The notes under the pieces are model-generated. The model made no database searches. It saw nothing but the letters and a program-made list of their open reading frames with translations, and had not been told where the DNA came from. Below are positions 9,775 through 41,200 of a stretch of 64,000 nucleotides of DNA, piece by piece. Position 1 is the first letter of the stretch; each line of letters starts with the position of its first letter. Source of the DNA: Heliocidaris erythrogramma (Eukaryota > Echinodermata > Echinoidea > Camarodonta > Echinometridae); the NCBI GenBank assembly GCA_025617745.1, contig CM046869.1:3308823-3372822 (forward strand). The letters are read 5' to 3'. The position numbers and the translations under genes were made by a program.

Positions 9775-9847
9775 ATGGCAGTGTTGAAGGGGATTTTTGT
9801 CTCCCTTCTGCTTTGTCTTCTTTCTCAATGCGTTTCTTCTCAGCAAG
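9775..9847 (+). CDS. Exon 1: signal peptide
   Basis: Starts at the first ATG of the open stretch (context gag-ATG-G) and encodes MAVLKGIFVSLLLCLLSQCV followed by SSQQ, a typical signal peptide: short basic start, Leu-rich core, small residues before the likely cut after Ser-Ser. The frame is open further upstream to about 9628 but has no ATG there. The donor GTAAGA at 9848 leaves one base (G), which completes GAA with the first two bases of the CUB 1 exon. The sequence upstream from about 9580 is probably 5' UTR; I see no TATA box I would trust. Confidence 0.85.
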
Positions 9848-14200: not shown

Positions 14201-17200
14201 GTCGGGAAAGTGTAAATGGGGCAAAATTTGTCTCGACTTAATGTTCGGGTCACTTAAATTCGTGAACCATGAGCAACCTGGACGCAACTAAAGGGCTTAT
14301 CTCATAGGCGGAGACGTCGCCGTGACTGGGGAGACCAAAAAAATTCGAAAACTTAAGGGCCTATCTTATTGGCCTGGGGACTAGGTGGCAAACTGGTGAC
14401 GACTCGAGTCTCCGCCGGTTGCGACTAGCCGGGTCTCTGCGGACCTGCTTGATAATTTTTGCAGTCTCCAGCAGGTCTCGGAGACGTCTCCGCAACATCG
14501 CTGCATCGTCGCCGCAACGTCTCCTCAGTCTCCTTGGTTTCCAGCAGGTCTCGGAGACATCGCCGAGACGTCTCACCAGTCGCAGAGAAAATTAGTCTCT
14601 ACGATGTCGCCGCAAATGGTGGAGACTGGAAAAAGTCTCAAAAAAATCGAACATGTTTGAATTTCCCGGGACTCCCCGGAGGCTAAATTTTTTTTCCCCA
14701 CGAACTTTTTGTTCCTTTCCGATCTAAATCAATTTCGCAATCATAGGGTTTATTCCGTAAGCGATATAATGAGGTTTGCTCCCAGCGTCTTGCTGTGGCG
14801 AGATGCGTTAGCCCTCGGACATTTAACCTGAGGTATGTGGGTTCGACTCTCAGTTTGGACATTACAAAAATAACGTCTTGTATTTTTATTTTTACTAAAA
14901 GTAGGATGAAACTTTGAAACCCCATCCAACTCCAAGCATTATAGGGCTATTTCAAAGTTGCGCATGCGTCAAGGACGATAGTGACAAAAAGTTCTTGGGA
15001 AAAAAAAGTTCGCTCCCCGGAGACCCTAGGTAGGTTTCGGAAGCTATTCTCCAGCAGACGTCGCGGAGACGTCTCCGCAACCAGCGGAGACTCGCATCGC
15101 CGTCAGATCACCACCTAGTCTCGTCTCCAGGCCAATGAGAGCGTGCCGTTGCGCCACCCATGATGTCGTCAACTGCAATGCTAGCGCCACAATGCGCAAC
15201 TTGACCGGGCTGCAGACCAAAATGACAGTTGCAGTTCACTCGGGACTAGGCAAAAAGTGTGATCTACCACATGCAAAAAAAAAAAAAATAATAATGGAAC
15301 GAACAAAGGGCGGAACCGTTGAAGTTTAGACACTGTAAAGTTGATTTTCGGGCAATTGGCGTCAGCTCCCTTAGCCAATTTACGCCTTCAATTATGATGT
15401 AGAAATATTTTTAAAATTTTTATTTCACTCTCAATTTGATTTGTTTCACAGAATATGTGACTCTCGTTGCTGGAGAAACCCAGACCATCTCATCTCCAAA
15501 CTATCCTTCAAATTACGATAACGATGTGAACTACAATTGCTACATCTCGGCTCCATCAGGCTTTCGTATTCTCATACACTTTTTGGATTTCCGCACTGAA
15601 CAATGTTGTGACCCGCTTAAAATTGGGCCTGGAGAATCACCATACTCCCCTGGAAGTGCGGATTTCGTGACACTAGCTGGTACTTCATTACCCTCCGATA
15701 TGAGGTTTGTATGAAATCGAGACTTATTGTATATCAGCTGTTAAATTTCCTTGATATAAACAAAGTCTTAGTACCGAAGGCATACGGATTTATAGCAAAT
15801 CACTCAACCAAACTGAAACAACCAATCAGCAACTTATTCATTGCTCAAAAGGAAAGAGATATTGCTTCCACTAACATTTACATACATGTACACCATCTTG
15901 ATCTATCGACGGGAACTTGTGGGATCCTAGGGATCCTTCAGAACAATCCTCTGAATTGCATTATCATTATATGGCAGTGGGGTACTCGTGTTTCCGAAGG
16001 TTTATATTTCCGAAAAATAAATAGGGTTCATTACTTCGAAGGTTCGTATTTCCGAAAAATAATGTAGGTTCTATCAACCTGATTACATTTTCTGAATTAT
16101 GAACTTTTGGAAGTATGATCAATATTTAATATTCAGAACTATGAACCTTATCTCATTTTCGAAATTATGAACCATCGTAGTAATGAACTTTTGGAGTACG
16201 AACCTTCGGAAACAAGAACTTGCGGAATTATGAAAAACGACATGTAACCAATACGGCGTGGGGGGGGGGGAGTTTTTATTGGGCGAGCGCACCTTTTCTG
16301 GTCGAAACTGAGCTATCGTCTTGCCATTTTGAAATGGCATGGCTCACATTTTGGAATGCGTCTTGGTTCTAACAATCCTTTTTCTAATTTGATATTTAAT
16401 TTTTCAGAGTAGCCCTCATGATGCAGAGTCACTTTTTGCTCTCTATAAAAAAACGCTTTGCATTCCAGACAAAATGTCATGGAAGTACAGACTAATTTTG
16501 TTGCAAGTCATAGGTATTACGACAAACATGAGCTTAAAGGACAAGTAACCCCACGTGATATTCTAGATGCACCTATTGTCTGCTACGTCTTTCCATGGAG
16601 GCTGCCATTTTGTGCATGACACGGATCATTAGGTACCATATGCATTGATAATAGCCTACCTTTACAACAGATACGTCGCTTTGTTCTGATTGTATTACGA
16701 TTGTTATTGGCCATGGGCCTAGATAATTGACGACCCATGAGTTCTAATAGCCATCCTGTAAAGCAGATTCCTCGCTTTGTTTTGGTATTGTTACGATTGT
16801 CTCCGTCCTTGACGTCAATTCTCCGTCCTTGACGTATATTTTTTATGAAGTATATTTTTTATGAACAAATTAAGACCTTTTAAAAAATATAAAAACTAAA
16901 CTTACATTTCAGAATATGTGACTTTATCTATATATATTTGTCCTCTAAAAATCAATTACAAGTTAACGATGAAGGAAATTTTACTTGGGATGAAAAATAT
17001 GTTCGTGTACACATAAAGTAATGGCAGCCCCCTTATTATTGCTAGCAGACGATAACTTGGCTGGAAAATAGTGATTTATATCTATATCCTGTGTTTTTAC
17101 ATGAAATTGCATGTATCAAATAAGAGGCATATACTACACCATTCAAAATAAGCTAATTCATACGCTGAGGTTAATTTCCCTTTAAATACGGGTTATTAAA

Positions 17201-20200
17201 ATAACTTTTAAAGGGCTTCCTACGAACCATCGTGTGATCACATTCACGCCACGTTGTCACGTTATATGATTATTGTGAATACTAGCCCTAATCTCACGAA
17301 GGATAGGGCATGTATAGTGTAACATTTGGGAAATGCCCTGCTCTTATTGGCGAAGTGTTGGGTCCACTTTACTCGACACTTTATTAAAAGTATTGCAGAT
17401 ATACGAATACTCACGTCTCGAACCCGATACTTCGTCAATAAGAGGGGGTATTTCACAAACGTTACACCCTACCCTTCGTGAATTTTGGGCTTAGTATTCA
17501 CGAAAGGTTGTGTACCGTGACGACGCGACGTGATCACACGATGGTTCGTAGCAAGCCCTTTTTAAAGTCAATCCAACTGTCTTAGTAGGATGCAGTGTAT
17601 AGTTTTATATTCGGATTCAGAATACTATACCAATTCATGTTTGTTTCTGCAGGTTCGACGGGCCGAATTGTTGGATGGAGTTTGATAGTGATTATTCTGT
17701 CACTGAGAAAGGATTTCAGATACAACTAAGTCTTGTAAATTCAACAGAAGGTAACATCCTCTTCATGTTAGTCCATAAGTAAGAGATCAGTAAAAAGTAT
17801 TGTTGCACTGTAATGGTTAGCAATTGTTATAGCAAAGTACCAATCATGGGGTGCCTATAATCATGTTAAGACAAGTTACTTTACAGAGGAGTAAATGCGA
17901 TATATGAAGGCGCTTGGGAAACATGTTATTCAATTAATGATTTTTATCTTATTCTCATATCTAGGACTTAGTAATGTATACTGAGTTGCTCCATATTTAA
18001 TTTCTTGAAGGCTAGATGTACAAAACGATGCCTCATGTATTCGTGCCGATTTTGCAATTGAAGGGAAGTCAATTGGAATGGAATTCCTCATTCGTGTGGA
18101 AGTAGAAAAATTAGAAAAACAGGATGGCGAAAGTTGAAAGAAATGAGAAAGTTATGGATGCTTGTAAAATGAGACCACTAAACCTATATGGGAATCTCAA
18201 AAATATGGGGCGGCTGCCGCCCCCAATCTATGAAAATACCAATATTTGGACAGCAATGTGCCCGATTATTTGATTTAAAAAATCTAGTGTAGTGTGAAAT
18301 TTTCATGATGAAATGCAATCGCTAAGGTTTCACATTGGAAAGTTGATATTCGGGCAGGAGAAATAAATTGCAACTATCAAGATGCGAACTATTAAAAGAC
18401 ATGTTCTAACAGTTGCGTGGGTTTGTGATGACACATTGTATAATTTCTTGAATATTACGTAGATAACAGTTTGCTAGTTTAATATTTTGATAAGCACGAG
18501 GTTCAAGTGACATCGACAAATAAAAGATTTTGCCGAGATTTCTAGTCTGTTTTACAGGAGAGACACACTCAGTGCCAATTTATTTACGAAAGACTTCCTC
18601 TTCTTACGTTTTAGAACCAACCACTGATGATCCTTGGAGGACTACACCCCCATGGTGGTGGAATACTGATGGTAGGTCTTGTTTGGTTTTGATGTTTTCC
18701 TCTCTTTGGTTGTTAATTGGTTGTTAAGTCTTCCAGTGCCGATGTCACATATATGTGACATATAGACTTGTCATTTTCATTCCCCAATTTCTCGACCACA
18801 GGAAAGATATATGGTGGCCAATGTTTATCAACATTTTGAGCATAAATCAAGCATTCTACTATATGATTATAATTATATGCTACCATAGAAACTTTCAGAG
18901 AAAATCTTTTTTTTTACAAGGTTTTACCTTATTTCAACATTAAACAATAGTCAACAAATGAGACACCAAAAAATAATGCACACAAAAAAAACTCAAATGT
19001 AATTTTAAATAATTCTTATGCATAAAGTTGGGTAAAGTAATGCTGTTTGGTATCAAAAAACATGGTAGTAAATTTCCTACAAGTTTTGTACACCATATTT
19101 TATAATAATAGATAGCATTGATAACATTTTGGTAAAATTATGAAGAGAAACCCCTTTGCACAGTAAGAGTTAATGTCTCTTCCGTAAGTAAGTAAAATTG
19201 CATTATTCAGCCGCAGAAGTATTTGCTTATAATCGCAGGGTGAGAGGATGGGGGCGTTTTGATTTGTTCGTATATATGCACGTATATGTTATTTGAAATG
19301 TCGTATATCGTACATCGTACATTTTGATGGAGAATATTAAAGAACAGAAAACGGCTGTCCTTTAGAGAATATGTTAAAGCACCCCACCCAATTTCATCAT
19401 CTTACGTTTTAGAACCAAACACTGAAGATCCTTGGAGGACTACACCCCCATGGTGGTTGAATACTGATGGTAGGTCTTGTTTTGTCTTGATGTTTTCCTC
19501 TCTTTGGTTGCTAATTGGTTGTTAATATTTGTTCCGTAAGTAAGTAAAATTACATTATTCAGCCGCAGAAGTATTTGCTTATAATCGCAGGGTGAGAGGA
19601 TGGGGGCGTTTTGATTTGTTCGTATGTGCACGTATATGTTATTTGAAATGTCGTATATCGTACATCGTACATTTTGATGGAGAATATTAAAGAACAGAAA
19701 ATGGCTGTCCTTTAGAGAATGTGTTAAAGCACCCACCCAAAAAATATTTCATCTTCTTACGGTTTAGAACCAAACACTGAAGATCCTTGGCGGACTCAAC
19801 CCCCATGGTGGTGGAATACAAATTGTAGGTCTTGTTCTGTTTTGATTTTTTTTTCCTTTTAAACAATGTGGTTAATATTCCTTCTGTAAGATTCTATGAT
19901 TCAGCACTTCACGTATTTGTTGAGAATGGCAGGGGTGGTGGATGATTTGTTTTCCATCGGTTCGTTCAATTTGTTTGTATAGATGCACGTGTATGTTATT
20001 TGAAATGTCACTTCGTAATTAATTGACTTGGTAAACTTTTGTGGAGAATATTAATTAACAGAAAATGTTGATTAAGGCTGTTAATATGTTAAAACACACC
20101 AACGGCCAAGATGGATTTCATCTTCTTACGTTTTAGAACCAAACACTGAAGATCCTTGGAGGACTCAACCCCCATGGTGGTGGAATACAAATGGTTAGTC

Positions 20201-23200
20201 TTGTTCTGTTTTGATGTTTTCCTTTTAATGGCTGTGGTTAATATTTCTTCTGTAAGGAGCCCTTCACGTATTGGTTGAGAATCGCAGCGGTTGGAGGACG
20301 ATTTGTTTCGTTTAATTGGTAAATGCACCTATATATTATTTGAAATGACACTCGTTCATGAACCTGGTAAACTTTTTGTGGAGAATATTAAAGAACAGAA
20401 AATGTTGATTTAAGCTGTTAATATGTTAAAACACACCAACGGCCAAGATGGATTTCATTTTCTTACGTTTTAGAACCAAACACTGAAGATCCTTGGAGGA
20501 CTCAAACCCCATGGTGGTGGAATACAAATGGTAAGTCTTGTTCTGTTTGGATGTTTTTCTTTTAATCTCTGTAGTGAATATTCCTTCAATCTCTGTGGTA
20601 AAAATTCTTCTGTACGTATGATTGTACGATTAGGCCGTAGACGTATTTGTTGAAAACCGCAGGGGTTGGAGGACGATTTATTTCCCATCGGTTCGTTCAA
20701 TTTGTTGGTAGATGCACGTATATGATATTTGAAATATCACTTTGTTCATTTACTTAATATAACATAACACACCAACGGCCAATATAGATTTCATTTTCTT
20801 ACGTTTTAGAACCAAACACTGAAGATTCTTGGAGGACTCAACCCCATGGTGGTGGAATACAAATAATAATAATAATAATAATAATATTCCGCTTTTATAT
20901 AGCGCCTAATACATGGTTTTATCTCTTAGTGGGCTCTTTTTTCATGAATTCTATAATCTGATTGGTCAATTTGTCTGAGAGATAATTCCGTATTCTTGAC
21001 CAATAAATTATTTTTGTACACTTTAAGGGATAAAACCGTTGCACCCTGCTTGTTCTCACGGAATACGGGAAATATCTACGTTCTGGTTACATATTCCATT
21101 CGGCCTCCGGCCTCATGGAATATGGAACCAGCACGTAGATATTTCCCGTATTCCGTGAACAAGCAGGGTGTAACTAATAGTGTTTCTAAGCGCTTTACAG
21201 ATATATTATTACCCCGGTCATTGGATTCTGACATGCCCGCACACAATGTGTGCACTTTATCCGCTCCCTGGGGAGTATTCCAGCCAGTCGCTGTAAAGCG
21301 CCACATGCTAAGCAAACGACATTAACTTTCGCATCCTACCGGGTACCCATTTAACACCTGGGTGGAGAGTGGCAAATGTAGATTAACGTCTTGCCAAAGG
21401 ACGCTAGTGCTGCGGTGGGATTCGAACCCCGGACCTCGTAGTTCACAGTCCAGGGACTTATCCACTGTTTTAAGGTTTTCCTTTTAATCGCTGTGGTGAA
21501 TATTCCTTCTGTACGTATGATTGTACGATTAGGCCGTGGACGTATTTGTTGAGAATCGCTGGATGGAGTGGTTGAGGATTTGTTTTGTTTTGTTTCGTTT
21601 AAATCGTAGGTGCACGGATATATTATTTGAAATGACACTTGGTTCATTGAATTGGTATACCTTTTATGGATAACGCAAATGACAGTTCATTGACTTTGTA
21701 AACTTTTTGTAAAGAATATTAAAAAACAGATAATGTTGATTAAGGCTGCCTTTTAGAGAAAATGTTAAAACACACCAACGGCCAAGATAAATTTCATTTT
21801 CTTACGTTTTAGAACCAAACACTGAAGATCCTTGGAGGACTCAACCCCCATGGTGGTGGAATACAAATGGTAGGTCTTGTTCTGTTTGGATGTTTTCCTT
21901 TTAATCTCTGTGGGTAATATTCCTTCTGCAGTAATATCCTATGATTCAGCCCTTCACGTATTTTCTGAGAATCCCCGGGGGTAATGAACAATTTGGTTCG
22001 CTTTATTCCATTCAATTAATTTCTAGAAGCACGTACATATTATTTGAAATGACACTTCATTCATGGAATTAGTATACTTTTTATGGAGAATATAAAAAAA
22101 ACCCACATAAAATCGAGATTATTTACTGTCCTTTTAATCTCCATTATCAATATACCTTCTGTATTAGATTAGCCCTATACGTATCCACTGAGAATCGCCG
22201 TGGTGGGGACGATTGTTTCGTTTAATTGGTAAATGCACGTATATATTATTTGAAATGACACTTCGTTCATTGACTTGGTAAACTTTTTGTGGAGAATATT
22301 AAAGAACAGAAAATGTTGATTAAGGCTGTCCTTTAGAGAATATGTTAAAACACACCAACGGCTAAGATAGATTTCATCTTCTTACGTTTTAGAACCAAAC
22401 ACGGAAGATCCTTGGCGGACTCAACCCCCATGGTGGTGGAATACAAATGGTTAGTCTTGTTCTGTTTTGATGTTTTCCTTTTAATCGCTGAGGTTAATAT
22501 TCCTTCTGTATTAAAGTAAGATTATATGATTCAGCCTCAGCACTTCACGTATTTGCTGAGAATCGCAGGGGTTGGTGGATGATTTGTTTCCCATTGATTC
22601 GTTCAGTTCGTTGGTAGATGCACGTATATGTTATTTGAAATGTCACTTCGTTCATTGACTTGGTAAAACTTTTGTGGAGAATATCAAAGAACAGAAAATG
22701 TTGATTAAGGCTGTCCTTTAGAGAATATGTTAAAACCCACCAACAGCTAATATAGATTTCATCTTATTACGTTTTAGAACCAAACACGGAAGATCCTTGG
22801 CGGACTCAACCCCCATGGTGGTGGAATACAAATGGTTAGTCTTGTTCTGTTTTGATGTTTTCCTTTTAATCGCTGTGGTTAATATTCCTTCTGTAAGTAA
22901 GATTATATCATTCAACCCTTAACGTATTGGCTGAGAACCACAGGGGGTGTTGGACGATATGTCTGTCAAGGAACAGAAAATGTTGATTAAGGCTGTCCTT
23001 TAGAGAATATGTTAAAACCCACCAACAGCTAATATAGATTTCATCTTATTACGTTTTTAGAACCAAACACGGAAGATCCTTGGCGGACTCAACCCCCATG
23101 GTGGTGGAATACAAATGGTTAGTCTTGTTCTGTTTTGATGTTTTCCTTTTAATCGCTGTGGTTAATATTCCTTCTGTAAGTAAGATTATATCATTCAACC

Positions 23201-26200
23201 CTTAACGTATTGGCTGAGAACCACAGGGGGTGTTGGACGATATGTTTCTTATCCGTTCGTTCAATTTGTTGGTAGATGCATGTATATGTTATTTGAAATG
23301 TCACTTCGTTCATTGACTTGGTAAACTTTTTATGGAGAATATGAAAAAACAGAAAATGTTGATTAAGACTGTCCTTTAGGGAATATGTTAAAACACACCA
23401 GTCTGCCAATTGCCAATATAGATTTCATCTTATTACGTTTTAGAACCAAACACGGAAGATCCTTGGCGGACTCAACCCCCATGGTGGTGGAATACAAATG
23501 GTAGGTCTTGTTCTGTTTTGTTTTTTTTCCTTTTAAACAATGTGGTTAATGTTCCTTCTGTAAGATTCTATGCTTCAGCACTTCACGTATTTGTTGAGAA
23601 TCGCAGGGGTGGTGGATGATTTGTTTCCCATCGGTTCGTTCAATTTGTTTGTATAGATGCACGTATATGTTATTTGAAATGTCACTTCGTTCATTGACTT
23701 GGTAAACTTTTTATGGAGACTGTCAAAGAACAGAAAATGTTGATTAAGGCTGTCCTTTAGAGAATATGTTAAAACCCACCAACAGCTAATATAGATTTCA
23801 TCTTATTACCTTTTTAGAACCAAACACGGAAGATCCTTGGCGGACTCAACCCCCATGGTGGTGGAATACAAATGGTTAGTCTTGTTGATGTTTTCCTTTT
23901 AATCGCTGTGGTTAATATTCCTTCTGTAAGTAAGATTATATCATTCAACCCTTAACGTATTGGCTGAGAACCACAGGGGGTGTTGGACGATATGTTTCTT
24001 ATCCGTTCGTTCAATTTGTTGGTAGATGCATGTATATGTTATTTGAAATGTCACTTCGTTCATTGACTTGGTAAACTTTTTGTGGAGAATATTAAAGAAC
24101 AGAAAATGTTGATTAAGGCTGTCCTTTAGAGAAAATGTTAAAACACACCAACGGCCACTATAGATTTCCTCTTCTTACGTTTTAGAACCAAACACTGAAG
24201 ATCCTTGGAGGACTCAACCCCCATGGTGGTGGAATACAAACGGTAGGTCTTGTTCTGTTTTGATGTTTTCCTTTTAATCGCTGTGGTTAATATTCCTTCT
24301 GTAAGATTCTATGGTTCAGCACTTCACGTATTTGTTGAGAATCGCAGGGGTGGTGGATATTTCTTTCAAATCGGTTCGTTCAATTTGTTTGTATAGATGC
24401 ACGTGTATGTTATTTGAAATGTCATTTCGTTGATTTACTTCGTTAACTTTTTGTGGAGAATATGAAAAAACAGAAAATGTTGATTAAGACTGTCCTTTAG
24501 GGAATATGTTAAAACACACCAGTCTGCCAATTGCCAATATAGATTTCATCTTATTACGTTTTAGAACCAAACACTGAAGATCCTTGGCGGACTCAACCCC
24601 CATGGTGGTGGAATACAAATGGTAGGTCTTGTTCTGTTTTCTTTTTTCCTTTTAAACAATGTGGTTAATATTCCTTCTGTAAGATTCTATGATTCAGCAC
24701 TTCACGTATTTGTTGAGAATCGCAGGGGTGGTGGATGATTTGTTTCCCATCGGTTCGTTCAATTTGTTGTATAGATGCACGTATATGTTATTTGAAATGT
24801 CATTTCGTTGATTTACTTGGTTAACTTTTTGTGGAGAATATGAAAAAATAGAAAATGTTGATCAAGACAGTTCTTTATAGAGAAAATGTTAAAACACACC
24901 AACAGCTAATATAGATTTCATCTTATTACCTTTTTAGAACCAAACACGGAAGATCCTTGGCGGACTCAACCCCCATGGTGGTGGAATACAAATGGTTAGT
25001 CTTGTTCTGTTTTGATGTTTTCCTTTTAATCGCTGTGGTTAATATTCCTTCTGTAAGTAAGATTATATCATTCAACCCTTAACGTATTGGCTGAGAACCA
25101 CAGGGGGTGTTGGACGATATGTTTCTTATCCGTTCGTTCAATTTGTTGGTAGATGCATGTATATGTTATTTGAAATGTCACTTCGTTCATTGACTTGGTA
25201 AACTTTTTATGGAGACTGTCAAAGAACAGAAAATGTTGATTAAGGCTGTCCTTTAGAGAATATGTTAAAACCCACCAACAGCTAATATAGATTTCATCTT
25301 ATTACCTTTTTAGAACCAAACACGGAAGATCCTTGGCGGACTCAACCCCCATGGTGGTGGAATACAAATGGTTAGTCTTGTTCTGTTTTGATGTTTTCCT
25401 TTTAATCGCTGTGGTTAATATTCCTTCTGTAAGTAAGATTATATCATTCAACCCTTAACGTATTGGCTGAGAACCACAGGGGGTGTTGGACGATATGTTT
25501 CTTATCCGTTCGTTCAATTTGTTGGTAGATGCATGTATATGTTATTTGAAATGTCACTTCGTTCATTGACTTGGTAAACTTTTTATGGAGACTGTCAAAG
25601 AACAGAAAATGTTGATTAAGGCTGTCCTTTAGAGAATATGTTAAAACCCACCAACAGCTAATATAGATTTCATCTTATTACCTTTTTAGAACCAAACACG
25701 GAAGATCCTTGGCGGACTCAACCCCCATGGTGGTGGAATACAAATGGTTAGTCTTGTTCTGTTTTGATGTTTTCCTTTTAATCGCTGTGGTTAATATTCC
25801 TTCTGTAAGATTCTATCATTCAACCCTTAACGTATTGGCTGAGAATCACAGGGGTGGTGGATGATTTGTTTCCCATCGGTTCGTTCAATTTTTTTGTATA
25901 GATGCACGTATATGTTATTTTAAATGTCACTTCGTTCATTGACTTGGTAAACTTTTTATGGAGACTGTCAAAGAACAGAAAATGTTGATTAAGGCTGTCC
26001 TTTAGAGAATATGTTAAAACCCACCAACAGCTAATATAGATTTCATCTTATTACCTTTTTAGAACCAAACACGGAAGATCCTTGGCGGACTCAACCCCCA
26101 TGGTGGTGGAATACAAATGGTTAGTCTTGTTCTGTTTTGATGTTTTCCTTTTAATCGCTGTGGTTAATATTCCGTCTGTAAGTATAAGATTATATCATTC

Positions 26201-29200
26201 AACCCTTAACGTATTGGCTGAGAACCACAGGGGGTGTTGGACGATATGTTTCTTATCCGTTCGTTCAATTTGTTGGTAGATGCATGTATATGTTATTTGA
26301 AATGTCACTTCGTTCATTGACTTGGTAAACTTTTTATGGAGACTGTCAAAGAACAGAAAATGTTGATTAAGGCTGTCCTTTAGAGAATATGTTAAAACCC
26401 ACCAACAGCTAATATAGATTTCATCTTATTACCTTTTTAGAACCAAACACGGAAGATCCTTGGCGGACTCAACCCCCATGGTGGTGGAATACAAATGGTT
26501 AGTCTTGTTCTGTTTTGATGTTTTCCTTTTAATCGCTGTGGTTAATATTCCTTCTGTAAGATTCTATTGTTCAGCACTTAACGTATTTGTTGAGAATCGC
26601 AGGGGTGGTGGATGATTTGTTTCCTATCGGTTCGTTCAATTTTTTTGTATAGATGCACGTATATGTTATTTGAAATGTCATTTCGTTGATTTACTTGGTT
26701 AACTTTTTGTGGAGAATATGAAAAAAAACAGAAAATGTTGATTAAGACTGTCCTTTAGGGAATATGTTAAAACACACCAACAGCTAATATAGATTTCATA
26801 TTATTACGTTTTAGAACCAAACACGGACGATCCTTGGCGGACTCAACCCCCATGGTGGTGGAATACAAATGGTTAGTCTTGTTGATGTTTTCCTTTTAAT
26901 CGCTGTGGTTAATATTCCTTCTGTAAGTAAGATTAACTCATTCAACCCTTAACGTATTGGCTGAGAACCACAGGGGGTGTTGGACGATATGTTTCTTATC
27001 CGTTCGTTCAATTTGTTGGTAGATGCATGTATATGTTATTTGAAATGTCACTTCGTTCATTGACTTGGTAAACTTTTTATGGAGACTGTCAAAGAACAGA
27101 AAATGTTGATTAAGGCTGTCCTTTAGAGAATATGTTAAAACCCACCAACAGCTAATATAGATTTCATCTTATTACCTTTTTAGAACCAAACACGGAAGAT
27201 CCTTGGCGGACTCAACCCCCATGGTGGTGGAATACAAATGGTAGGTCTTGTTCTGTTTTGATGTTTTCCTTTTAAACAATGTGGTTAATATTCCTTCTGT
27301 AAGATTCTGTGATTCAGCACTTCACGTATTTGTTGAGAATCGCAGGGGTGGTGGATGATTTGTTTCCCATCGGTTCGTTCAATTTGTTGTTAGATGCATG
27401 TATATGTTATTTGAAATGTCACTTCGTTCATTGACTTGGTAAACTTTTTGTGGAGAATATCAAAGAACAGAAAATGTTGATTAAGGCTGTCCTTTAGAGA
27501 ATATGTTAAAACACACCAACAGCTAATATAGATTTCATCTTATTACGTTTTAGAACCAAACACGGAAGATCCTTGGCGGACTCAACCCCCATGGTGGTGG
27601 AATACAAATGGTTAGTCTTGTTCTGTTTTGATGTTTTCCTTTTAATCGCTGTGGTTAATATTCCTTCTGTAAGTAAGATTATATCATTCAACCCTTAACG
27701 TATTGGCTGAGAACCACAGGGGGTGTTGGACGATATGTTTCTTATCCGTTCGTTCAATTTGTTGGTAGATGCATGTATATGTTATTTGAAATGTCACTTC
27801 GTTCATTGACTTGGTAAACTTTTTATGGAGACTGTCAAAGAACAGAAAATGTTGATTAAGGCTGTCCTTTAGAGAATATGTTAAAACCCACCAACAGCTA
27901 ATATAGATTTCATCTTATTGCGTTTTAGAACCAAACACGGAAGATCCTTGGCGGACTCAACCCCCATGGTGGTGGAATACAAATGGTTAGTCTTGTTCTG
28001 TTTTGATGTTTTCCTTTTAAACAATGTGGTTAATATTCCTTCTGTCAGATTCTATGGTTCAGCACTTCACGTATTTGTTGATAATCGCAGGTGTGGTGGA
28101 TGATTTGTTTCCCATCGGTTCGTTCAATTTGTTTGTATAGATGCACGTATATGTTATTTGAAATGTCATTTCGTTGATTTACTTGGTTAACTTTTTGTGG
28201 AGAATATGAAAAAAAACAGAAAATGTTGATTAAGACTGTCCTTTAGGGAATATGTTAAAACACACCAACAGCTAATATAGATTTCATATTATTACGTTTT
28301 AGAACCAAACACGGACGATCCTTGGCGGACTCAACCCCCATGGTGGTGGAATACAAATGGTTAGTCTTGTTGATGTTTTCCTTTTAATCGCTGTGGTTAA
28401 TATTCCTTCTGTAAGTAAGATTAACTCATTCAACCCTTAACGTATTGGCTGAGAATCGCAGGGGTGGTGGATGATTTGTTTCCTATCGGTTCGTTCAATT
28501 TTTTTGTATAGATGCACGTATATGTTATTTGAAATGTCATTTCGTTGATTTACTTGGTTAACTTTTTGTGGAGAATATGAAAAAAAACAGAAAATGTTGA
28601 TTAAGACTGTCCTTTAGGGAATATGTTAAAACACACCAACAGCTAATATAGATTTCATATTATTACGTTTTAGAACCAAACACGGACGATCCTTGGCGGA
28701 CTCAACCCCCATGGTGGTGGAATACAAATGGTTAGTCTTGTTGATGTTTTCCTTTTAATCGCTGTGGTTAATATTCCTTCTGTAAGTAAGATTATATCAT
28801 TCAACCCTTAACGTATTGGCTGAGAACCACAGGGGGTGTTGGACGATATGTTTCTTATCCGTTCGTTCAATTTGTTGGTAGATGCATGTATATGTTATTT
28901 GAAATGTCACTTCGTTCATTGACTTGGTAAACTTTTTATGGAGACTGTCAAAGAACAGAAAATGTTGATTAAGGCTGTCCTTTAGAGAATATGTTAAAAC
29001 CCACCAACAGCTAATATAGATTTCATCTTATTACCTTTTTAGAACCAAACACGGAAGATCCTTGGCGGACTCAACCCCCATGGTGGTGGAATACAAATGG
29101 TAGGTCTTGTTCTGTTTTGATGTTTTCCTTTTAAACAATGTGGTTAATATTCCTTCTGTAAGATTCTGTGATTCAGCACTTCACGTATTTGTTGAGAATC

Positions 29201-32200
29201 GCAGGGGTGGTGGATGATTTGTTTCCCATCGGTTCGTTCAATTTGTTGTATAGATGCACGTATATGTTATTTTAAATGTCATTTCGTTGATTTACTTGGT
29301 AAACTTTTTGTGGAGAATATTAAAGAACAGAAAATGTTGATTAAGGCTGTCCTTTAGAGAATATGTTAAAACACACCAACAGCTAATATAGATTTCATCT
29401 TATTACGTTTTAGAACCAAACACGGAAGATCCTTGGCGGACTCAACCCCCATGGTGGTGGAATACAAATGGTTAGTTCTGTTTTGATGTTTTCCTTTTAA
29501 TCGCTGTGGTTAATATTCCTTCTGTAAGTAAGATTATATCATTCAACCCTTAACGTATTGGCTGAGAACCACAGGGGGTGTTGGACGATATGTTTCTTAT
29601 CCGTTCGTTCAATTTGTTGGTAGATGCATGTATATGTTATTTGAAATGTCACTTCGTTCATTGACTTGGTAAACTTTTTATGGAGACTGTCAAAGAACAG
29701 AAAATGTTGATTAAGGCTGTCCTTTAGAGAATATGTTAAAACCCACCAACAGCTAATATAGATTTCATCTTATTACCTTTTTAGAACCAAACACGGAAGA
29801 TCCTTGGCGGACTCAACCCCCATGGTGGTGGAATACAAATGGTTAGTCTTGTTCTGTTTTGATGTTTTCCTTTTAATCGCTGTGGTTAAAGTAGAACACT
29901 CAAGAAAATCACAAATATGGCAATTAATGTATCACTAGAAATTGGGAAGCTTACAGATGGCAATCGTATAAGTTTTATGTCAACTGCGTATATGATGATT
30001 ATAAAAACAACATAAATAAAAGCTCTTCTCAGCATGTGGAATATCCGAGGATTCGCCAGAAATATAGCGATGTTTTGATGTCGTCATACGAGGGATCGAT
30101 CCTGCTTAAGCAGACGACGTCCTATAATGAATGAACGTAATTGCAATGCAATTATTTATCAAATTATAAAGAGTTTGGTACATTTAAACATGACCTTATT
30201 TCACACCATTCTAAAAGGGAAAGTGAACTGATTCTGATAACTAAAACCGTTTGATTGTAAATACACAGGAGAAGGGTCAATGATCAATGAAATAAACCCC
30301 ATTTTCAAATTGAAAAGCCCTGCGAATAATAGCTGGATGGTATTCGTTCCCTCTTGAAACGCCGAACATGCCGCGGTGCAAGCAGCTGAAAATACAATGG
30401 CGTCTTATTTTGTTTACAAGTGACTGATTCCTTTATTTTTTTAACGCTGCATTTTTCATCAAAATAATACCATACACGAAGTTAAGGGTGAGGCAACAGA
30501 CTAACATTAAGACTGACGCTAGTCAAGTAAGAGAAATAAGTGAAGAGGAGATGACAAAACAGGCACTGAAAAATGTGTATAATGTTATGGGACATCGTCT
30601 GCTTAGACAGGACTCGCCCCTCTTGTGTCGTCACACATCTCAGCAGCGTTCAAGGAGCTTTTCAGCTGCTATATCGGGGGCTGTATTTTACCGTTTTATA
30701 ATTGATAATAATCATTAATTCAAATGTTTCCAAGCTTTAAATTTGGATAACCTTGTTTAATTTATGCCATCTATGCAATAATAAGTATTAAGCCAATATT
30801 TAAAATCATCAGTGTTCTACTTTAATATTCCTTCTGTAAGATTCTATTGTTCAGCACTTAACGTATTTGTTGAGAATCGCAGGGGTGGTGGATGATTTGT
30901 TTCCTATCGGTTCGTTCAATTTTTTTGTATAGATGCACGTATATGTTATTTGAAATGTCATTTCGTTGATTTACTTGGTTAACTTTTTGTGGAGAATATG
31001 AAAAAAAAACAGAAAATGTTGATTAAGACTGTCCTTTAGGGAATATGTTAAAACACACCAACAGCTAATATAGATTTCATATTATTACGTTTTAGAACCA
31101 AACACGGACGATCCTTGGCGGACTCAACCCCCATGGTGGTGGAATACAAATGGTTAGTCTTGTTGATGTTTTCCTTTTAATCGCTGTGGTTAATATTCCT
31201 TCTGTAAGTAAGATTAACTCATTCAACCCTTAACGTATTGGCTGAGAACAACAGGGGGTGTTGGACGATATGTTTCTTATCCGTTCGTTCAATTTGTTGG
31301 TAGATGCATGTATATGTTATTTGAAATGTCACTTCGTTCATTGACTTGGTAAACTTTTTATGGAGACTGTCAAAGAACAGAAAATGTTGATTAAGGCTGT
31401 CCTTTAGAGAATATGTTAAAACCCACCAACAGCTAATATAGATTTCATCTTATTACCTTTTTAGAACCAAACACGGAAGATCCTTGGCGGACTCAACCCC
31501 CATGGTGGTGGAATACAAATGGTAGGTCTTGTTCTGTTTTGATGTTTTCCTTTTAAACAATGTGGTTAATATTCCTTCTGTAAGATTCTGTGATTCAGCA
31601 CTTCACGTATTTGTTGAGAATCGCAGGGGTGGTGGATGATTTGTTTCCCATCGGTTCGTTCAATTTGTTGTATAGATGCACGTATATGTTATTTTAAATG
31701 TCATTTCGTTGATTTACTTGGTTAACTTTTTGTGGAGAATGTGAAAAAACAGAAAATGTTTATTAAGATTCTATGATTAGGCCGTAGACATATCTGCTTA
31801 ATCGCAGGTTAGAGTGGTTGTTTGTTTTGTTTCGTTTAATTGCTTGTATATATGATTTGAAATGACACTTCGTTCATTGAATCGGTATACAGGCCCGTAG
31901 CCAGAGGGGGGTCGGAGGGGTCGGACGACCCCTCCTTCTTGGGCTGAGGTCCGCTTTTTCATGAAAAAAACACACACACCTTAAATCTTTGTTACCAGAT
32001 TGACACTCTAATAAATATTTTGTTTCTGCGACTTTGAAAATGTGTGTTCATCATTCACAACCCCTAAATTTCCCCTCGGGAGTCCTTAAATTGCAGCAGA
32101 AAGCATCTAGATTTTAAAATTTTCCGGGGGGAGCATGCCTCCGGACCCCCCTTGCAAGGACCTGCCTTCGGCAGGTCCGTATTGATTATGACAAAAAGGT

Positions 32201-35200
32201 CCACTTTTGCCAAAAACGACCCACCCCTTGAGAAACCCTGGCTACGGGCCTGGTATACCTTTTATGGATAACGAAAAAACATAATGTTGATTAAGGCTGT
32301 CCTTCAGAGAATACGTTAAATTACACCAACGGCCAATATAGATTTCATCTTATTACGTTTTAGAACCAAACACTGAAGATCCTTGGAGGACACAACCTCC
32401 ATGGTGGTGGAATACAAATGGTAGGTATTGTTATGTTTTGATGTTTTCCTTTTAATCGATGTGGTTAATATTCCTTCTGTACGCAAGGTTCTGTAAGACT
32501 CAGCCGTAGAAGTATTTGCTGGTTGCAGTGGGGACAATTTTGTTTCGTTTTTGTTAACTGGTAGAGGCACGTATCTCTTATTCGAAATGACACTTCATTT
32601 ATTGACTTGGTATATTTTATTTGGAGACTATTAAAGAACAGAACATGTGGCCGTTTTCTAGAGAATATTTAAAAGCACTTCCACATGGCAGTGGAACACT
32701 GATGGTAGGTCTTGTTTTATTATGTCTTCTTTTTAATCTCTGTTTTTTTGAATATTTCCTCTGCATGTGATAGTCTGGGAGCCATCAGAGTTGACCCCTT
32801 AATATTATTTAGACCATGTAATTCACAAAAGGGCTCCAAAGTTCAACCCATCTAACATACGCACTTTGTCACAAGGAAGTTGAATGAATATACATCACCA
32901 ATACAAAAAAGCTGACAATATTTTCCGTCGGGATGGGTTTTCAGACGGCCCTATTTTTTCCAGTTAGGGCCCATGGCCTGGTTGGAAAGTGGCAAACTAT
33001 GTAGATGAATGCCTAGCCAATGGAGACTGGTGCCGCACCGCGGCTCGAACCCAGGGCCTTTGCATCTCCAGTCAAATGTTTAAGCCACTGGACTACGACA
33101 CCTCTGTTAACTCTAATCACTTTTTTGTAACTTTGGAACAAAGTGTTTTCTCTTTGAGTGATTCTGTGTAAATTTTCATAGTTTATTCGCAGTTTTGTAG
33201 TAGTGTGATGTTAATGTTGTATTTAATACTAATCACCCCTCTAGTCGATATCTATTAATGATGCAAGGACTGCTATAGTATTCCCAGTATATCTGGTAGA
33301 TAGGGTACATCGTGAACCTGAAGAAGTCTTCATGATCTGGCATCCGCTCCCTTTAGGAAGTGGATGGCGTTTATTTGGTAATGAACTCCGTCTAGGGTCT
33401 CAGTAAGTAGACCAATAATTTTTGTGAATTGAATGTTTAGAACTATTCTGTGAGATATAAAACAGTGCCAACATTCTGCTTTGACAGTACTTTAAACATA
33501 TCTTTTCTATAAACGATAGTGATACGTGGTGTTTTTAGAACTATAACCATCATAGAATATAACATTGAATGTTAGAACTCTTTCCATCGTTCAGTTTTAT
33601 ATTTTATGACCCGCTATTAAAGGCCGCAAGCCTATGCTACTTAAATTCAGTTGAACTGGACGCGAAGACTTAATTTGTGTCAAACATAAGGATAACTTTA
33701 GATACTTTTCATAAGTTTGATTTATACCGAGCTTAAACCCAGCGCTGGGTTTATATCTTAGTAAAGTATGGACCTATGGTTCCAGGTAAAAAAAATTACT
33801 TTAATTAATTAAAAAATTCATTAATCTACATATCTTCAGTTTCTGCTTTTATTTTGTAGTCCGTGTATTTCTTGTTTTTCTTAAAATCTGCTATTTTGTA
33901 AGCGCTATGGTTTTCAGCGCTCCTAAATATTCTGTGATAACATTAATAATATTATTATTATTTTTATGACGATGCTGATTATTATCATTGTCATGATTAT
34001 TAATATTACTATGAAGAGGTGTTGTGATCTAGTGGATAAAGTCACAGGACTGAAAATCACAAGGCACGGGGTTCGAATCTCAGCCCGGCGCTTCCGTCCT
34101 CTGACAAGACATTAAATTCGCCACTCTCCACCCAAGCGCAAAAGGGATACCGGATATGAGCCCTATACAAGAGGCCATTATCATTATTATAATGACTATT
34201 TTTATTGTTATCATTATTCTGATATTGATTTTTATGGTTGTGTTTCAGTGCCTTCACCTGATTTTCCTGTTCCAAGAAACCAGTCTGTTAGTAAGTATCT
34301 CTTGGAATTATGTAATCATGAGCTGAGCCTTAATGAGATGGGCAGGGGGACTGGGATAGGGGGGCGGTAAATTCCTGTAACAGAAACATGTTTTAATTTT
34401 GGGCGCATTATTTGACATATTTTCACATGCATACCGTATAACCCTTCATATAATTATAGCTGTCGCACAAACTAATCTTGTTTATCTATAATAATTCATA
34501 TTCATAACTATAGAATTCGAAAGGAGAGGGCTGGAGACTGATCTCAGAAGTAGTTACCTTTTATCATTTCAGTGGTGTTTTAATATTTTGAAAAAATATA
34601 CGTTCTTGTCTGTTAGTTGAATTGTAAAACGTAATCGCATTTCTCTATTCACACGTTATTTCAAAAGACATCCATCGGTTTGGGATCACATGGAAATGAC
34701 ATGGAAAAAATATATATAGCATATCAAAATAGGACTACTCAGATTTAACATGTGAAAAGTTATATAACATAATCAAATTTGGTATCATATTGTTATATAA
34801 ATAATGAAACTATAAATTCATAAAGTCGCTATTCATGTTTAACATGTGACAAATCATATAACATTGTATTAAACTGGATATCATACGGACATCTTGTTGA
34901 TATAAAAAATGCAGTAGTTTGTATTCAAAGCAGGTATTATGACATAAAATCATCTCTTGTAAAACAGTTTTTATGAATACGACCATCCTGTATAAAAAGC
35001 ATGAAGCTTCATGGAGATAGACAGAAAAATCAGTTTACAGCGTGAGTGCAAAAAAAAAAAAAAGTATGTGCAACACAAAATTTATGAGATATCAATCTAA
35101 AAAGGCTAAACTATGTAAACCTAACAATAATCGATCTCTTAGTCTATTGTGCTCTCTCTATTAAAATCGGTAGGTTTTTTACGTTTAGATACAAAATTGC

Positions 35201-38200
35201 ATAACAGTGTGTTTTTTATTATCTCACACTCTAAGCTTATATCTATTTAGGTGAAAGGTTCATGCTTTTCGAATACGTATTTTACAGATGTGTCTCTCGC
35301 TGTTGGAGAAACGCAGACAATCTCATCTCCAGACTATCCTTCACAATACCACGACCGCGCAAACTACAAGTGGTCCATCACGGCGCCATCGGGGTACGAT
35401 GTTCTCATCCGGTTTTTGGATTTCCGCACTGAAGAATGTTGTGACTATCTTGATATCTGGTGTGCAGATTCACCTAATGCCTTTGTAGTTACGGAGTCTG
35501 TGCGGCTGTCTGGTTTTTCATCACAAGATATGAGGTTAGCATTAAATCTTGAGCTGTTTCACGTGTATCTCAAAAGTCTGCGCAGTATAAATCGTTTCGT
35601 GTGAGACCACAAAACGTAGAGTTGAAATCTAAGTTTAAAATACCTCGCAACAAGAATGAGTTTTTCGTCCAATTATTTACCATTTTTCATAGTTCTGAAT
35701 ATATGTTTTATTGCTTATCAGTCAGTCGTGTGAAGGTTAGACCAATTGTATCTCCTTATTAGAAAAAAAAATTAAAAAGTGTACTCATATGGCTCGTTTA
35801 AATCTCCAGGTTAGACGGGCCATACTGTTGGATGCAGTTCACCAGTGATTATTCTGTCACTGAGAGGGGATTTCAACTCCAACTAAGTCTTGTAAATCAA
35901 ACAGAAGGTAAGATCATCTACATGTTAGGACATAAGTAGGAGATCAGTATATTATTAATACATGGTTTGGAGTGCGTTGGTGCAAGCCGAGTGTGTTTGA
36001 CACCACGATAAAAACCTGCGTGTTGCCAGATCGCACTAATGCACGAACTCACAACCATGTATTAATAGTTTTATAAAACGGGTCGGCAATATGATTATGA
36101 AGTCTCCAAAAATGGTTACGAGCCCCATAGAAACGCCAAGAGTCGCACAGTCATGGAGGCTGCCATTTGCGTTCCTGGATGACATCACAGAAGCGCAGCG
36201 CAGCCAACACAAGTCATGCGCGTTTCTAACTCACGTTGGGTGATGGTGGATAGGTCCGTGCGACTGAGTTTAGCGAAACTTTCAAGCTTTGAAAATCCAA
36301 ATTTCAGTGCTCTTTTCGTACTGTTGGAATCCTTCCCACTCAGTAGGCTAGATCGTCGAATTCTTCCTCCGTGAGAAGTGCAAAACTGAGATTCGAAGAT
36401 ACAGCCATTTTTACACGCTTACAAACTTAAACTTTCATTTACGGTACTGCACTGCACCGATCCGACCGCGGTATAGCGCTACAGCTGTAATTTTGTTGAT
36501 TTGTTTTTTGTTGTTGATTTGTTGACATTAGCGCGACGATCGATATCGCAATATCGATAGCGTATACGGTATAGCGTGTAAAAACATATAGCAAAATCGA
36601 GTCTTATCGTCTGCGCTACATAAATGTTTACATGTTTATGTTTACATGTTTACATGTTTACATGTGCATTAGACCCCTTTGCCGTATGTTATCACTTTTT
36701 TTTGCATGGTCACGTGGTGTTATTTGACCAATCAGGATGGCTACATTCTTGAACCCGTTTTATAATATAGAATATTGTTGCGTTTTTATGGTTAGCAATA
36801 GTTATAGCATGGGTCCAATCGTGGGGGCGGGAGTTCTCTGAGAAACACAGGTAGCGAGGTTATACTTTGCGATGACTTGCCAAGGAAATAATTTACGTTA
36901 TTTAGTGCTTATGATTTAGGAAAAGTTTGCAAAGGAGTACATACGGTATAATGAAGGCGCTTGGAAGTACATATCATGTGTAAATCCAGAAATCCAGGAT
37001 GAGCTTCAGCCAGTGGCGTAAAAAAAGTTCCGAGGAGTGTGGGGGGGGGGGGGGGGTAGGGCTGCAATCAGAAAGGTAGCAGTTTTAGTATTTTAATATA
37101 ATTTTAACCTTGTATGCCTTAAATGTCATTTATAGTAATTATGTAAAATTACAACAACTTATCGATTTTATTATTGTTACCTTGAAAAAGAATGTGTGTG
37201 TGCGTATGTATGTGCGGATGGGTACGGGGGGGGGGGGGGGGGTGCTATACTTTACAGGGTATTTCCCTTTCCCTCAAAAGTGTGCGGGGGATTTATACCC
37301 CCTTCTTCCGCGATTTACGCCCTTGGCTCCGGTCCTCTGAATGGTGTTTTTTCATCTTCATGCTAATTAAAATTTTGCTTATAATTTGTCATTTTGAAGT
37401 CTGGTTCTTTAAATCACCTTTGAAGGACAATTCCTTGAAATGGTGAACTTATCGATGGCAAACTGTAGTTTTGTCCATTGCTCATCACCGTCTAGTTTTA
37501 AAACCAATCACTGATGATCCCTGGACTCAGCAACAGAGATACTGATGGTTTATCTTTCCTTTCTTTTAATTCACCTATAGGAGTGCGATGAGTGGGGGGG
37601 GGGGGGGGGGGGGGGGGCACAGTCCCGAATTTGGAAAAGTCCACTTTTCGGCAGGAAGATACAAGAATGCCCTAAACAATTTCCGAAGAGTGCGGGGGGG
37701 GGGGTGCAATCTGAAGGAGTGCAATTTTAGTATTTTAACGAAAAGTTCTCTGTATGCTTTACAAGTCGGGGCTGTAGCCTCGAATTTTGAAAAATGCCAC
37801 TTTTGGCAGGAAAATACCAGAATAACCTCATTATACGGGCTGCACTTTGCCTGATTATGTGATTTTTAAAGGATATCTATTCTAATGTAGTTTGATATTT
37901 TGATGACGAAATAAAATATTTTACCATAACAAATGTAACTTTGGGTCTATCGCTTCGCTTGATCACAAAATTTACGCTCTGGAAAGGTCATATTCGGGCA
38001 GGATAAATGAATTACAGTTATTATGAAGATGAGAACTAGCAAAGGCATGAACTTATTGTTGTGTTGATTGAAGTGACAGATATTGTCTAATGGCACGAAT
38101 GTTACGTACTTGTAGTTGGCTATAGCTCAACACAACGAGAAATATGAGGTGTAAGTGACGTCAACGAGTTAAAGATTTCACCTAGGAGAGACACACTCAG

Positions 38201-41200
38201 AGCCAACATATTTACGAAAGATTTCCTCTTGTCACGTTTTAGAACCAACCACTGATGATCCTTGGAGGACCCAACCCCCCTGGTGGAATACTGATGGTAG
38301 GTCTTGTTTTGTTTTTGATGTTTTCCTTTTAATCTCTTTGGTTGCTAATATTCCTGCTGTCAGTAAAGCCCAGCTTAAAGGACACGTTAATTTACTGATT
38401 AACAAGACTTGCTATTACCAATGTATCAGTATAACACTACGTGTTGTGAGTAATGACGGTTAAACTTTTGCTAAAGTATGCAACTGGAAACACTATGAAA
38501 TATAGTTTATTGTGTGTAATGGATTATTTCATTTCGTTGAGTGGATTAGGTTTTAATCGAAACTGGGTAGGAATTGAGGCAGTCTATATTAACAGTATAT
38601 AATAATAATAATAATAATATGTCTTGTTTACCCAGGATAGCCTCATCAGTATTATATACTGTTCTCCCTGAGGGTCCTGCAATCATACTATTAACTCTTT
38701 CAGTGACGATGTCACATAAATTTGACAGATAGACTTGTCATTTGCATTCACCAATTGCTCGGCGACAGGAAAGATATATGGTGGTCAATATATATCAAAA
38801 TTTTGAGCATAAATCAAGCATTTTAAATATATGATTATGATTATATTTTACCATATAAAATTACAGATTTTTAAAAAGCTATTACCTTATTTCATTATCA
38901 AACAATAGTAAACAAATGAGAAACCATAAAAACATGGACAACCCCCCCCCCTTCCCCCGAAATGTATTTTTAAATAATTCTTATGCATAAAGTTGGGTAA
39001 AGTAATAATGTTTGGTATTATAAGAAATTGTAATAAATTTTCTACAAGTTTGGTAAATAATATTTTGTGAAATAATAGATGTTTAATGAAGTGCAGACAT
39101 TTGAAAAGTAAGTATTGATCACATTTTGGTAAAATTTTGAAGAGAGCTAAACCCCTTAGCACAGTATATGTTAAAACACATTCACGAAAATTTTCATCTT
39201 GTCACGTTTTAGAACCAACAACTGATGATCCCTGGAGACCAACACCAACTTGGTGGTGGCCGAATACCGATGGTAAGTCTTGCTTTTCTTTTCATCTTTA
39301 ACAATAATAATGACAATAATAACAATAACAATGGTAATAATAGTAATTCTAATAGTAAAAATAATAATAACAATCGTAATGATAACAATAATAATAATAA
39401 TGATGATAATAATTAATAATATTGGATATTTATACAGTGCTCACATCCTCCAGGCAGGCTGCCCAAGGCGTTCCATATTACCTCAGTCACACCGCCAAAC
39501 GTTTTATAAACTTGTAATCAGTGACAACTGCCACATTTCTATGACAAATTTGATCTCAACCAATCAGATCCAAGGATTTCAAGCATCAATAAGTATTTAT
39601 ACCAACAAAGCTCTGCCATTCCTGGCTCATTTTTCCCGATTGAGGTGTCATATGAAAGGGCAGAAAATGAACTTTCTAGAAATGTGATTATCTCTTTGAA
39701 ATTCAGATATCTTTGGCCAAACGACTTTTTGGTAGCCCCGATTTATATTGTCTTTATTCACTCATGCGTGAAGTATGTATCATATGAGTGGCATCAAACC
39801 TTTACAAATATGTGCCATTTATTAATCATTGTGATTAAGATATGATTAAACATTGATAAATCTCGGTTTTGTTTTTTTCTGGGACGCATTGTATAAGAGT
39901 TGGCGTATGCTGCAAGGTTTTGGAATCAACAAAATGATAAGAAATTGACTCAGTCCTGCTGAGAGTCACATGCTCTGCACACAGAAATGTGTATATGGGA
40001 CTACACACAAATGTTCGGCCCGAACATTTCAGCTGTTGTCATATTTTGAATGTGAGAGCTTTTGAAGAATTATCCTTTTCAGGGGACATAATCATCTATG
40101 ATAATCTAACTAACATAAAAAGAATGAACTCACAAATTATTTTTTACCTTTTCCAGCTTCTCTTTAACGTATGTAGAGGTGTTGTGGTTGTGGTTCGAAT
40201 CTCAGCCCGGCACTTACGTCCTGTGGCAAGACATTAATCTACATTTGCCGGATATGAGGGCTCTACAAGTGGGCATTATTATTATTATTATTATTATTAT
40301 TATAATAACTCTAACCGCGACTTAGGGCGAAATCTTTTATCTCATTCTTTTGTTACGTTTCGCCCTAACCCACACTCGTTTCGCCCGAACGTTGAGTTTC
40401 TATTGTGACGGAATAAACCTATTGTTAGGTTTCGCCTTAAGTCGCAGTTAGGTAAATAAAATTAACATTATTGTTATCATTATTCTTCTGACATCGATTT
40501 TTTTGGTTGTGCTTCAGAAACTTCAACTGATTTTCCAGTCCCGAGAAACCAGTCTGTAGGTAAGTTTGTCTTGGAATTATGTAATCATGAGCTGAGCCTG
40601 AGATTTTTGTTTTTCTATAGCGATTCATATTTATATAACATATTCGAAAAGGATGTATTATTATATAGTTTCCTCCATTTTAAGGATGTTATATTCTCTC
40701 TTTCTTTCATATTAATTGTTCTTTATATTCTTTTATTCCTTTATATTGATTGTACTAGTTAAACTTAAATACTTACACGCATTTTCTTCTGACAAACAGC
40801 AAAACTTGTTTCATATAATAGTCCATTTCCTTAATAAGAGTTGTCGGTAAAACCTCAATTTTGGAAGGACATGTAAATCAAATAAAATGGAAAGTGATCA
40901 AACTTGACAATAGGTTTTTACAATCAAATGGCATTTGTTAACGAGGAGCGAAACGAGCGGGCCAAGACCCTGACGGAAATGTGCCTCTACGCTGATACCT
41001 GCCTATATGATGTTACAAATAGAATTTCACTTTATTATTTTTATTTGCCTGTTTTACAGATGTGAACGTGAATCTCGTTGTCGGAGAAACGCAGACAATC
41101 TCATCTCCAGACTATCCTTCATATTACCACAACTTCGAAAACTTCAACTGGTTCATCACGGGGCAACCGGGGTACGATGTTCTCATCCGGTTTTTGGATT

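Follow-up and report, generated by a model that had tools for sequence, protein, structure and literature searches.

The nearest known design to the locus described here is, in our analysis, that of DMBT1/SALSA, whose repeat region is reported, in the parts of the sources drawn on, to undergo large copy-number variation (PMC3100851, PMC4851238), with 8 to 13 SRCR/SID units whose SIDs are Ser/Thr-rich spacers of 20-24 residues placed between SRCR domains (PMC3100851), and with one region that mutates at 0.7-2.7% per generation (PMC4851238). We have analyzed a window of 64,000 nucleotides from the sea urchin Heliocidaris erythrogramma (contig CM046869.1, positions 3,308,823 to 3,372,822 of the forward strand; coordinates are counted below from the first letter of this window unless a contig handle precedes them), which contains one gene, gene A, modeled in full from start to stop and predicted to encode a membrane-anchored CUB/ZP protein with an array of 30 short Trp-triplet exons, the W exons, between its first two CUB domains. 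Like DMBT1, this locus has CUB and ZP domains and short spacers that recur between domains, SRCR being present in a paralog, gene B; unlike DMBT1, gene A has no SRCR domain in its model and carries its 30 W spacers consecutively with no domain in between, and, in contrast to a SID, the W spacer contains no Ser, 16.5% Thr and 20.9% Trp and sits between CUBs. We would accordingly place gene A outside the DMBT1 class, and its spacer outside the SIDs, even if the two proteins may work in a similar manner. CUZD1 presents a second likeness in that its CUBs are followed by a ZP module and a transmembrane segment, and the CUBs of gene A likewise lie N-terminal to a complete ZP-N/ZP-C pair; gene A differs, however, in having five CUBs, a somatomedin-B-like domain and W/linker spacers. 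We consider it probable that gene A encodes a membrane-anchored, shed, filament-forming CUB/ZP protein in which unequal exchange has multiplied the first spacer, the outcome being a long, acidic stalk of Pro and Trp that would act by its length and its Trp valency. What the sequence itself shows is the gene model, the constraint on the exons, the recurrence of the spacer class and the signs of exchange.

A scan of both strands of the window for the 57-nt W exon places the array at 18615..32420 on the plus strand, from the start of W1 at 18615 to W30 at 32364-32420, with 31 W copies of which 30 are 57 nt long, while the closest match on the minus strand has 27 mismatches out of 57. All 30 exons are preceded by AG and followed by GT, begin with AA and have phase 1-1 (a codon is split at phase 1 at both ends); the last base is G in 29 of them and T in W3 alone. 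The first-pass annotation, made from the letters of the window, had described 30 exons of equal length and phase in units of about 372 bp, and both statements are borne out, the start and end coordinates being exact and 21 of the 29 start-to-start spacings falling at 368-385 bp, with the other eight between 283 and 1,339 bp. The peptide EPNTEDPWRTQPPWWWNTN is encoded exactly by 23 of the 30 exons, an EPNTDD variant (D for E) by four more (W19, W23, W24 and W28), and W1, W2 and W5 each have a peptide of their own; TQPPWWWNTNEPNTEDPWR is an example of a peptide derived from the W repeat. The annotation also knew of no named domain with this repeat, in agreement with the searches: five W units matched no Pfam family at E 0.01 and three W units matched no PDB sequence at E 10, composition filters being able to hide weak matches in both cases. 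The W exon had no exact DNA match in either the prokaryotic or the viral contig collections, and Rfam gave no match across the whole window at gathering scores. In the titles and abstract openings of the papers among the matches listed there is no description of a Trp-triplet repeat, and the strings PPWWW, PWWWN and TPWWW occur, among the matches listed, in papers on unrelated subjects, presumably as parts of web addresses. Inspected by eye, the consensus repeat contains neither a C-mannosylation motif (WxxW) nor an N-glycosylation motif.

Comparison of the exons with their own flanks makes the W exons look like coding-constrained sequence that is used as protein and held under strong constraint. 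Parsimony changes were counted on the tree of the flanks for 29 intact copies, leaving aside the decayed copy and W27, whose flank is cut by an inserted element, and the 300 flank columns used are those in which at least 25 of the 29 copies have a letter. Changes per site then amount to 0.316 in the exon (18 over 57 sites) versus 1.673 in the flanks, and 14 of 57 exon sites are variable versus 228 of 300 flank columns (p = 2e-13); at codon positions 1, 2 and 3 the exon has 0.32, 0.16 and 0.47 changes per site, respectively. The quietest stretch of 57 columns in the unit is the exon, with 14-18 changes against 56 in the next non-overlapping stretch, and its quietest placing begins five columns upstream of the exon, across the acceptor. 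Trp codons are one transition away from a stop, and G columns with any A number 0 of 14 in the exon versus 33 of 60 in the flanks (p = 1.3e-4); 119 of the 120 Trp positions in the 30 W exons are Trp, one is Leu (in W2) and none is a stop. These figures bear on the idea that the array is a dead satellite which grew within an intron, with an exon-like part that sees little or no use, an idea that could draw on the decayed copy at 20810, the nonsense junction of W3, the 940-bp element inside the array and a gene B W exon with a lost donor (all described below), but which we regard as very improbable in the face of five-fold fewer changes in exon than in flank, no stop at 120 Trp positions, and a W exon class found in frame at every CUB-CUB boundary of gene A and again in gene B. 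The spacer sequence is apparently maintained by selection, and gene model and coding constraint both agree with the earlier description of a CUB/ZP protein whose first two CUBs are separated by a Trp-rich spacer.

The same annotation had called all 30 exons intact and free to be skipped or added, which is correct for the splice sites and length of all 30 and for the free use of 29, but not for W3 (19768..19824, plus strand). Since every W exon starts with AA and W3 ends in T, joining W3 to any W exon writes a TAA stop; a hand-spliced model with all 30 W exons terminates once residue 198 has been read, and omitting W3 gives an open frame of 1,717 aa. Joined to LK1, the linker exon that follows the array and starts with TG, W3 gives TTG and no stop, and on this arrangement a full-length product must either skip W3 or have it as the final W exon before LK1. 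A decayed 31st copy (20810..20866, plus strand) is one base short and lacks a donor. These junctions could also be accommodated by a splice-diversified receptor, in which subsets of W exons would vary by cell or individual to give graded lengths and output would be adjusted by W3, used as a poison exon or as a terminal one; the W exons are all symmetric, W3 gives TAA with any W exon and not with LK1 (T + TG), and the donor types (18 GTTAGT, 11 GTAGGT and 1 GTAAGT) are intermixed along the array. Dscam has tandem exons of equal phase too, but the W exons are near-identical, their frame permits cumulative inclusion, and exact reverse-complement words of 9-12 nt shared by the two introns that flank the array and the 29 within it, as a sign of Dscam-like docking and selector sites, were not above the level of 20 shuffles of the flanks, although a diverged or G-U-rich site could escape exact words. 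Near-identical exons would, moreover, yield few distinct sequences and chiefly a variation in length, and we judge splice diversification of this kind to be unlikely.

The distribution of differences along the array is informative about its turnover. Pairwise diversity among all 30 units, including W27, which raises its flank value, is 0.037 in the exon and 0.136 and 0.182 in the flanks, the corresponding values being 0.011, 0.076 and 0.128 in the core (W7-W29) and 0.074, 0.281 and 0.319 at the edges (W1-W6 and W30). Some non-adjacent units are identical over the aligned stretch (W25 with W29, W11 with W15), W19 and W28 differ by 0.3%, and multi-unit duplications of 946-950 bp with 97.7-98.6% identity are found within the array. 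Multiplication of the array by unequal exchange or conversion, with edges that fade, is supported by the identical non-adjacent copies, by these duplications and by the homogeneous core with its divergent edges, and the unequal crossing-over that had been proposed at first reading fits the same observations. Spacer length is probably free to vary. The W27-W28 intron also harbors a 940-bp element (29886..30825, no strand assigned) flanked by TTAA, with 15-bp terminal inverted repeats, which we take to be piggyBac-like and non-autonomous. Because its three copies, the others being at 3212-4151 and 59138-60077, are 99.5-99.9% identical, a recent arrival is suggested; the array contains a single copy, which has not been amplified along with the W units.

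Gene A was joined by hand into one continuous model at 9775-62831 on the plus strand, to which all of the following exons belong. Its first exon (SP, 9775..9847), recognized by its open reading frame and donor, carries the start codon and the signal peptide MAVLKGIFVSLLLCLLSQCVSSQQ and ends in phase 1; CUB1 follows in two exons (CUB1a, 15452..15704; CUB1b, 17653..17750) and leads into the 30 W exons, after which come LK1 (34249..34290, 42 nt, phase 1-1, with an NQS sequon) and CUB2 (CUB2a, 35288..35534; CUB2b, 35810..35907). The next spacer is made of W31 (38243..38296, 54 nt), W32 (39213..39272, 60 nt) and the linker LK2 (40518..40559), CUB3 (CUB3a, 41060..41312; CUB3b, 41586..41683) is followed by W33 (41900..41953, 54 nt), W34 (42772..42831, 60 nt) and LK3 (43519..43560), and CUB4 (CUB4a, 44078..44330; CUB4b, 47434..47531) by W35 (48722..48778, 57 nt) and by W36/LK4, a 90-nt exon in which W motif and linker are fused (49841..49930). 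After CUB5 (CUB5a, 52155..52413; CUB5b, 53143..53243) there is a somatomedin-B-like exon (53817..53945), with no W exon between the two in the model, and then a ZP module of five exons, two for ZP-N (54647..54837 and 55893..56072) and three for ZP-C (57815..58032, 58832..58931 and 61851..62046, the last of which also holds the RSRR furin-like site); a last exon (62677..62831) contributes the transmembrane segment, a short tail and the stop. When Pfam was run on a spliced model carrying W1 and W30 only, CUB scored 254 bits in five stretches, over its cut-off, as did two CUB subfamilies over theirs, ZP-N scored 41.6 bits (cut-off 24.7) in a single stretch and ZP-C 92.5 bits (cut-off 24.6); Somatomedin_B, at 19.8 bits, stayed below its cut-off of 23.1, its Cys pattern being recognized by eye, and SRCR had no match at E 0.01. 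The signal peptide, the furin-like site after ZP-C and the C-terminal transmembrane segment were all judged by eye. Two of its introns contain fragments of another kind, one reverse-transcriptase-like in intron 1 (9876-10103; RVT_1, E 0.0076) and one helicase-like on the minus strand (50926-51327; DEAD, E 1.2e-4), both below their Pfam cut-offs.

The W exon is not confined to the array. W exons of 54-90 nt, all in frame, stand at all four CUB-CUB boundaries of gene A, each of which has a two-part spacer of one or more W exons and then a linker (fused at the fourth), and its spacer exons are all of phase 1-1, with lengths (42, 54, 57, 60 and 90 nt) divisible by three. The blocks around W31 and W33 (38174-38415 and 41831-42072) are 99.2% identical, and CUB-spacer cassettes 2 and 3 are probably products of recent duplication or conversion. 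In a search of the whole genome (1.064 Gb, 26 contigs) at least 31 repeat matches were obtained at E 0.001, all inside the window (30 of the array and W33), and a broader query at E 1 gave 20 matches, every one on the contig that holds the window; they fall in gene A and in a neighbor encoded by the other strand, apart from one that is weaker. The neighbor is gene B, a paralog lying tail to tail with gene A (C17:3378503-3411405, minus strand; loci L024-L028), whose last exon, at 3.3785 Mb, is about 7 kb beyond the end of gene A. Read from the last exon towards the start, it has a transmembrane segment, ZP, SRCR, CUB and LDL-receptor repeats, which are here taken as belonging to one gene, Pfam recognizing one SRCR, and LDL-receptor class B in two of the three pieces given; beyond it there is a sushi-looking stretch that Pfam does not recognize. 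It has W exons of its own, five in number and 60 or 63 nt long, which differ in sequence from those of gene A (for example, EPTTDDNRTPRPTWWWWYTTD). Across their ten pairs exon identity is 89-98%, and 18 flank values out of 20 fall at 34-61%; the remaining two, at 83-87%, both concern upstream flanks, one in the pair formed by the first and third W exons and the other in that formed by the fourth and fifth. It follows that the spacer keeps its sequence as most of the intron around it drifts. It is likely that the W array grew separately in gene B, where one W exon (C17:3404481-3404419, L027) has the donor ATAAGT in place of GTAAGT and is probably out of use. The weaker match, at 10.006 Mb (E 0.025, flanked by AG and GT), may belong to a third gene with a W exon; at C17:10006328 and 10008655/10009586 (loci L037-L039) we observed one W exon, EPITDDPWTQQPTWRNTDG, two copies of a related linker-like exon and a partial CUB copy. 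The mitochondrial sequence of this genome is that of an echinoderm: reading COI with the standard code meets 11 TGA codons, tables 4, 5, 9 and 13 leave it open and table 2 interrupts it, and table 9 (AAA = Asn, ATA = Ile, AGR = Ser) yields the residues expected to be conserved. Beyond COI the genes were read by eye as COX1, ND4L, COX2, ATP6, COX3, ND3, ND4, ND5, ND6 (minus strand) and CYTB, preceded by the ND2 end, an order shared by sea urchins and sea cucumbers.

As to what such a spacer may do, the 29 combinable units would give 551 residues with 20.9% Pro, 20.9% Trp, 16.5% Thr, 15.2% Asn and no Ser, at a pI of about 4.05. According to the mechanism we propose, a W exon at the CUB1-CUB2 boundary would have been multiplied to 30 copies by unequal exchange, the product being an acidic stalk dominated by Pro, Trp, Thr and Asn, devoid of serine and at most ~550 residues long. 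The protein would be anchored in the membrane and probably shed, its ZP part polymerizing into a filament, and the Pro-rich stalk, extended or disordered, would keep CUB1 clear of that filament; the Trp triplets could then behave as weak multivalent sticky patches, towards one another, glycans or surfaces, and copy number would set both stalk length and valency and may vary among individuals. The same composition might suit an underwater adhesive or structural matrix protein whose stickers would be the Trp triplets together with acidic and Arg residues, although we know of no echinoderm adhesive that is a CUB/ZP membrane protein. For this option, which appears improbable to us, there speak the Trp and Pro content over 551 residues, the low pI, and the repetitive nature of sea urchin spicule matrix proteins, together with the tendency of skeletal matrix proteins to be acidic and flexible (PMC5460417). 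Equally doubtful, in our view, is an egg-coat or gamete-recognition protein whose array would diverge and change length in an arms race with sperm: gene A shares with the abalone vitelline envelope receptor for lysin (VERL) a ZP-family framework and a long tandem array, ZP egg-coat tandem repeats being known from VERL, it has a ZP module with a furin-like site and a transmembrane segment, and its unit sequence is unlike that of gene B. The VERL repeats are, however, ZP-N domains according to the part of the report drawn on (PMC13361971), whereas gene A repeats a 19-residue spacer exon and has only one ZP-N stretch; the array peptide is conserved (23 of 30 identical) rather than diversified, and the SRCR and LDL-receptor repeats of gene B lie nearer to DMBT1-like epithelial and immune proteins.

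Several observations weigh against the long, sticky stalk that we favor. The joining of 29-30 W exons in one mRNA is predicted from the genomic sequence of one assembly, and the sticky-patch role is suggested by composition. Of the 30 W donors 18 are GTTAGT, which is weaker at +3 than the consensus, even though CUB1a-CUB4a use GTT donors too. A splice from W3 into any further W exon would cut the protein short, and copies do get lost, as the decayed copy at 20810 and the ATAAGT donor of gene B illustrate. Finally, three of the five paralog regions inspected (C17:37.3 Mb, C13 and C12) have related CUBs and no convincing W exon, so that the family does not need the W spacer, and a ZP relative on C6 had no W match in the broader query at E 1.

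Taken further, and only tentatively, the Trp-triplet exon might be a mobile spacer repeat, so far undescribed, that belongs to the CUB/ZP genes of echinoderms. Its copy number would then be inherited, would differ from one individual to the next and would set how long the stalk is and how many sticky patches it bears, while W3 would restrict productive transcripts to those in which it is skipped or comes last in the array. To our knowledge, secreted proteins seldom contain a stretch with 21% Trp, and in this case two genes keep the sequence as the DNA around it turns over. Because each repeat is a single exon, the locus offers a clean system for studying how an extracellular filament protein is tuned by spacer length and aromatic valency, and the W array is suited to questions such as how fast an array changes among individuals and how faithfully splicing proceeds across thirty near-identical neighbors.

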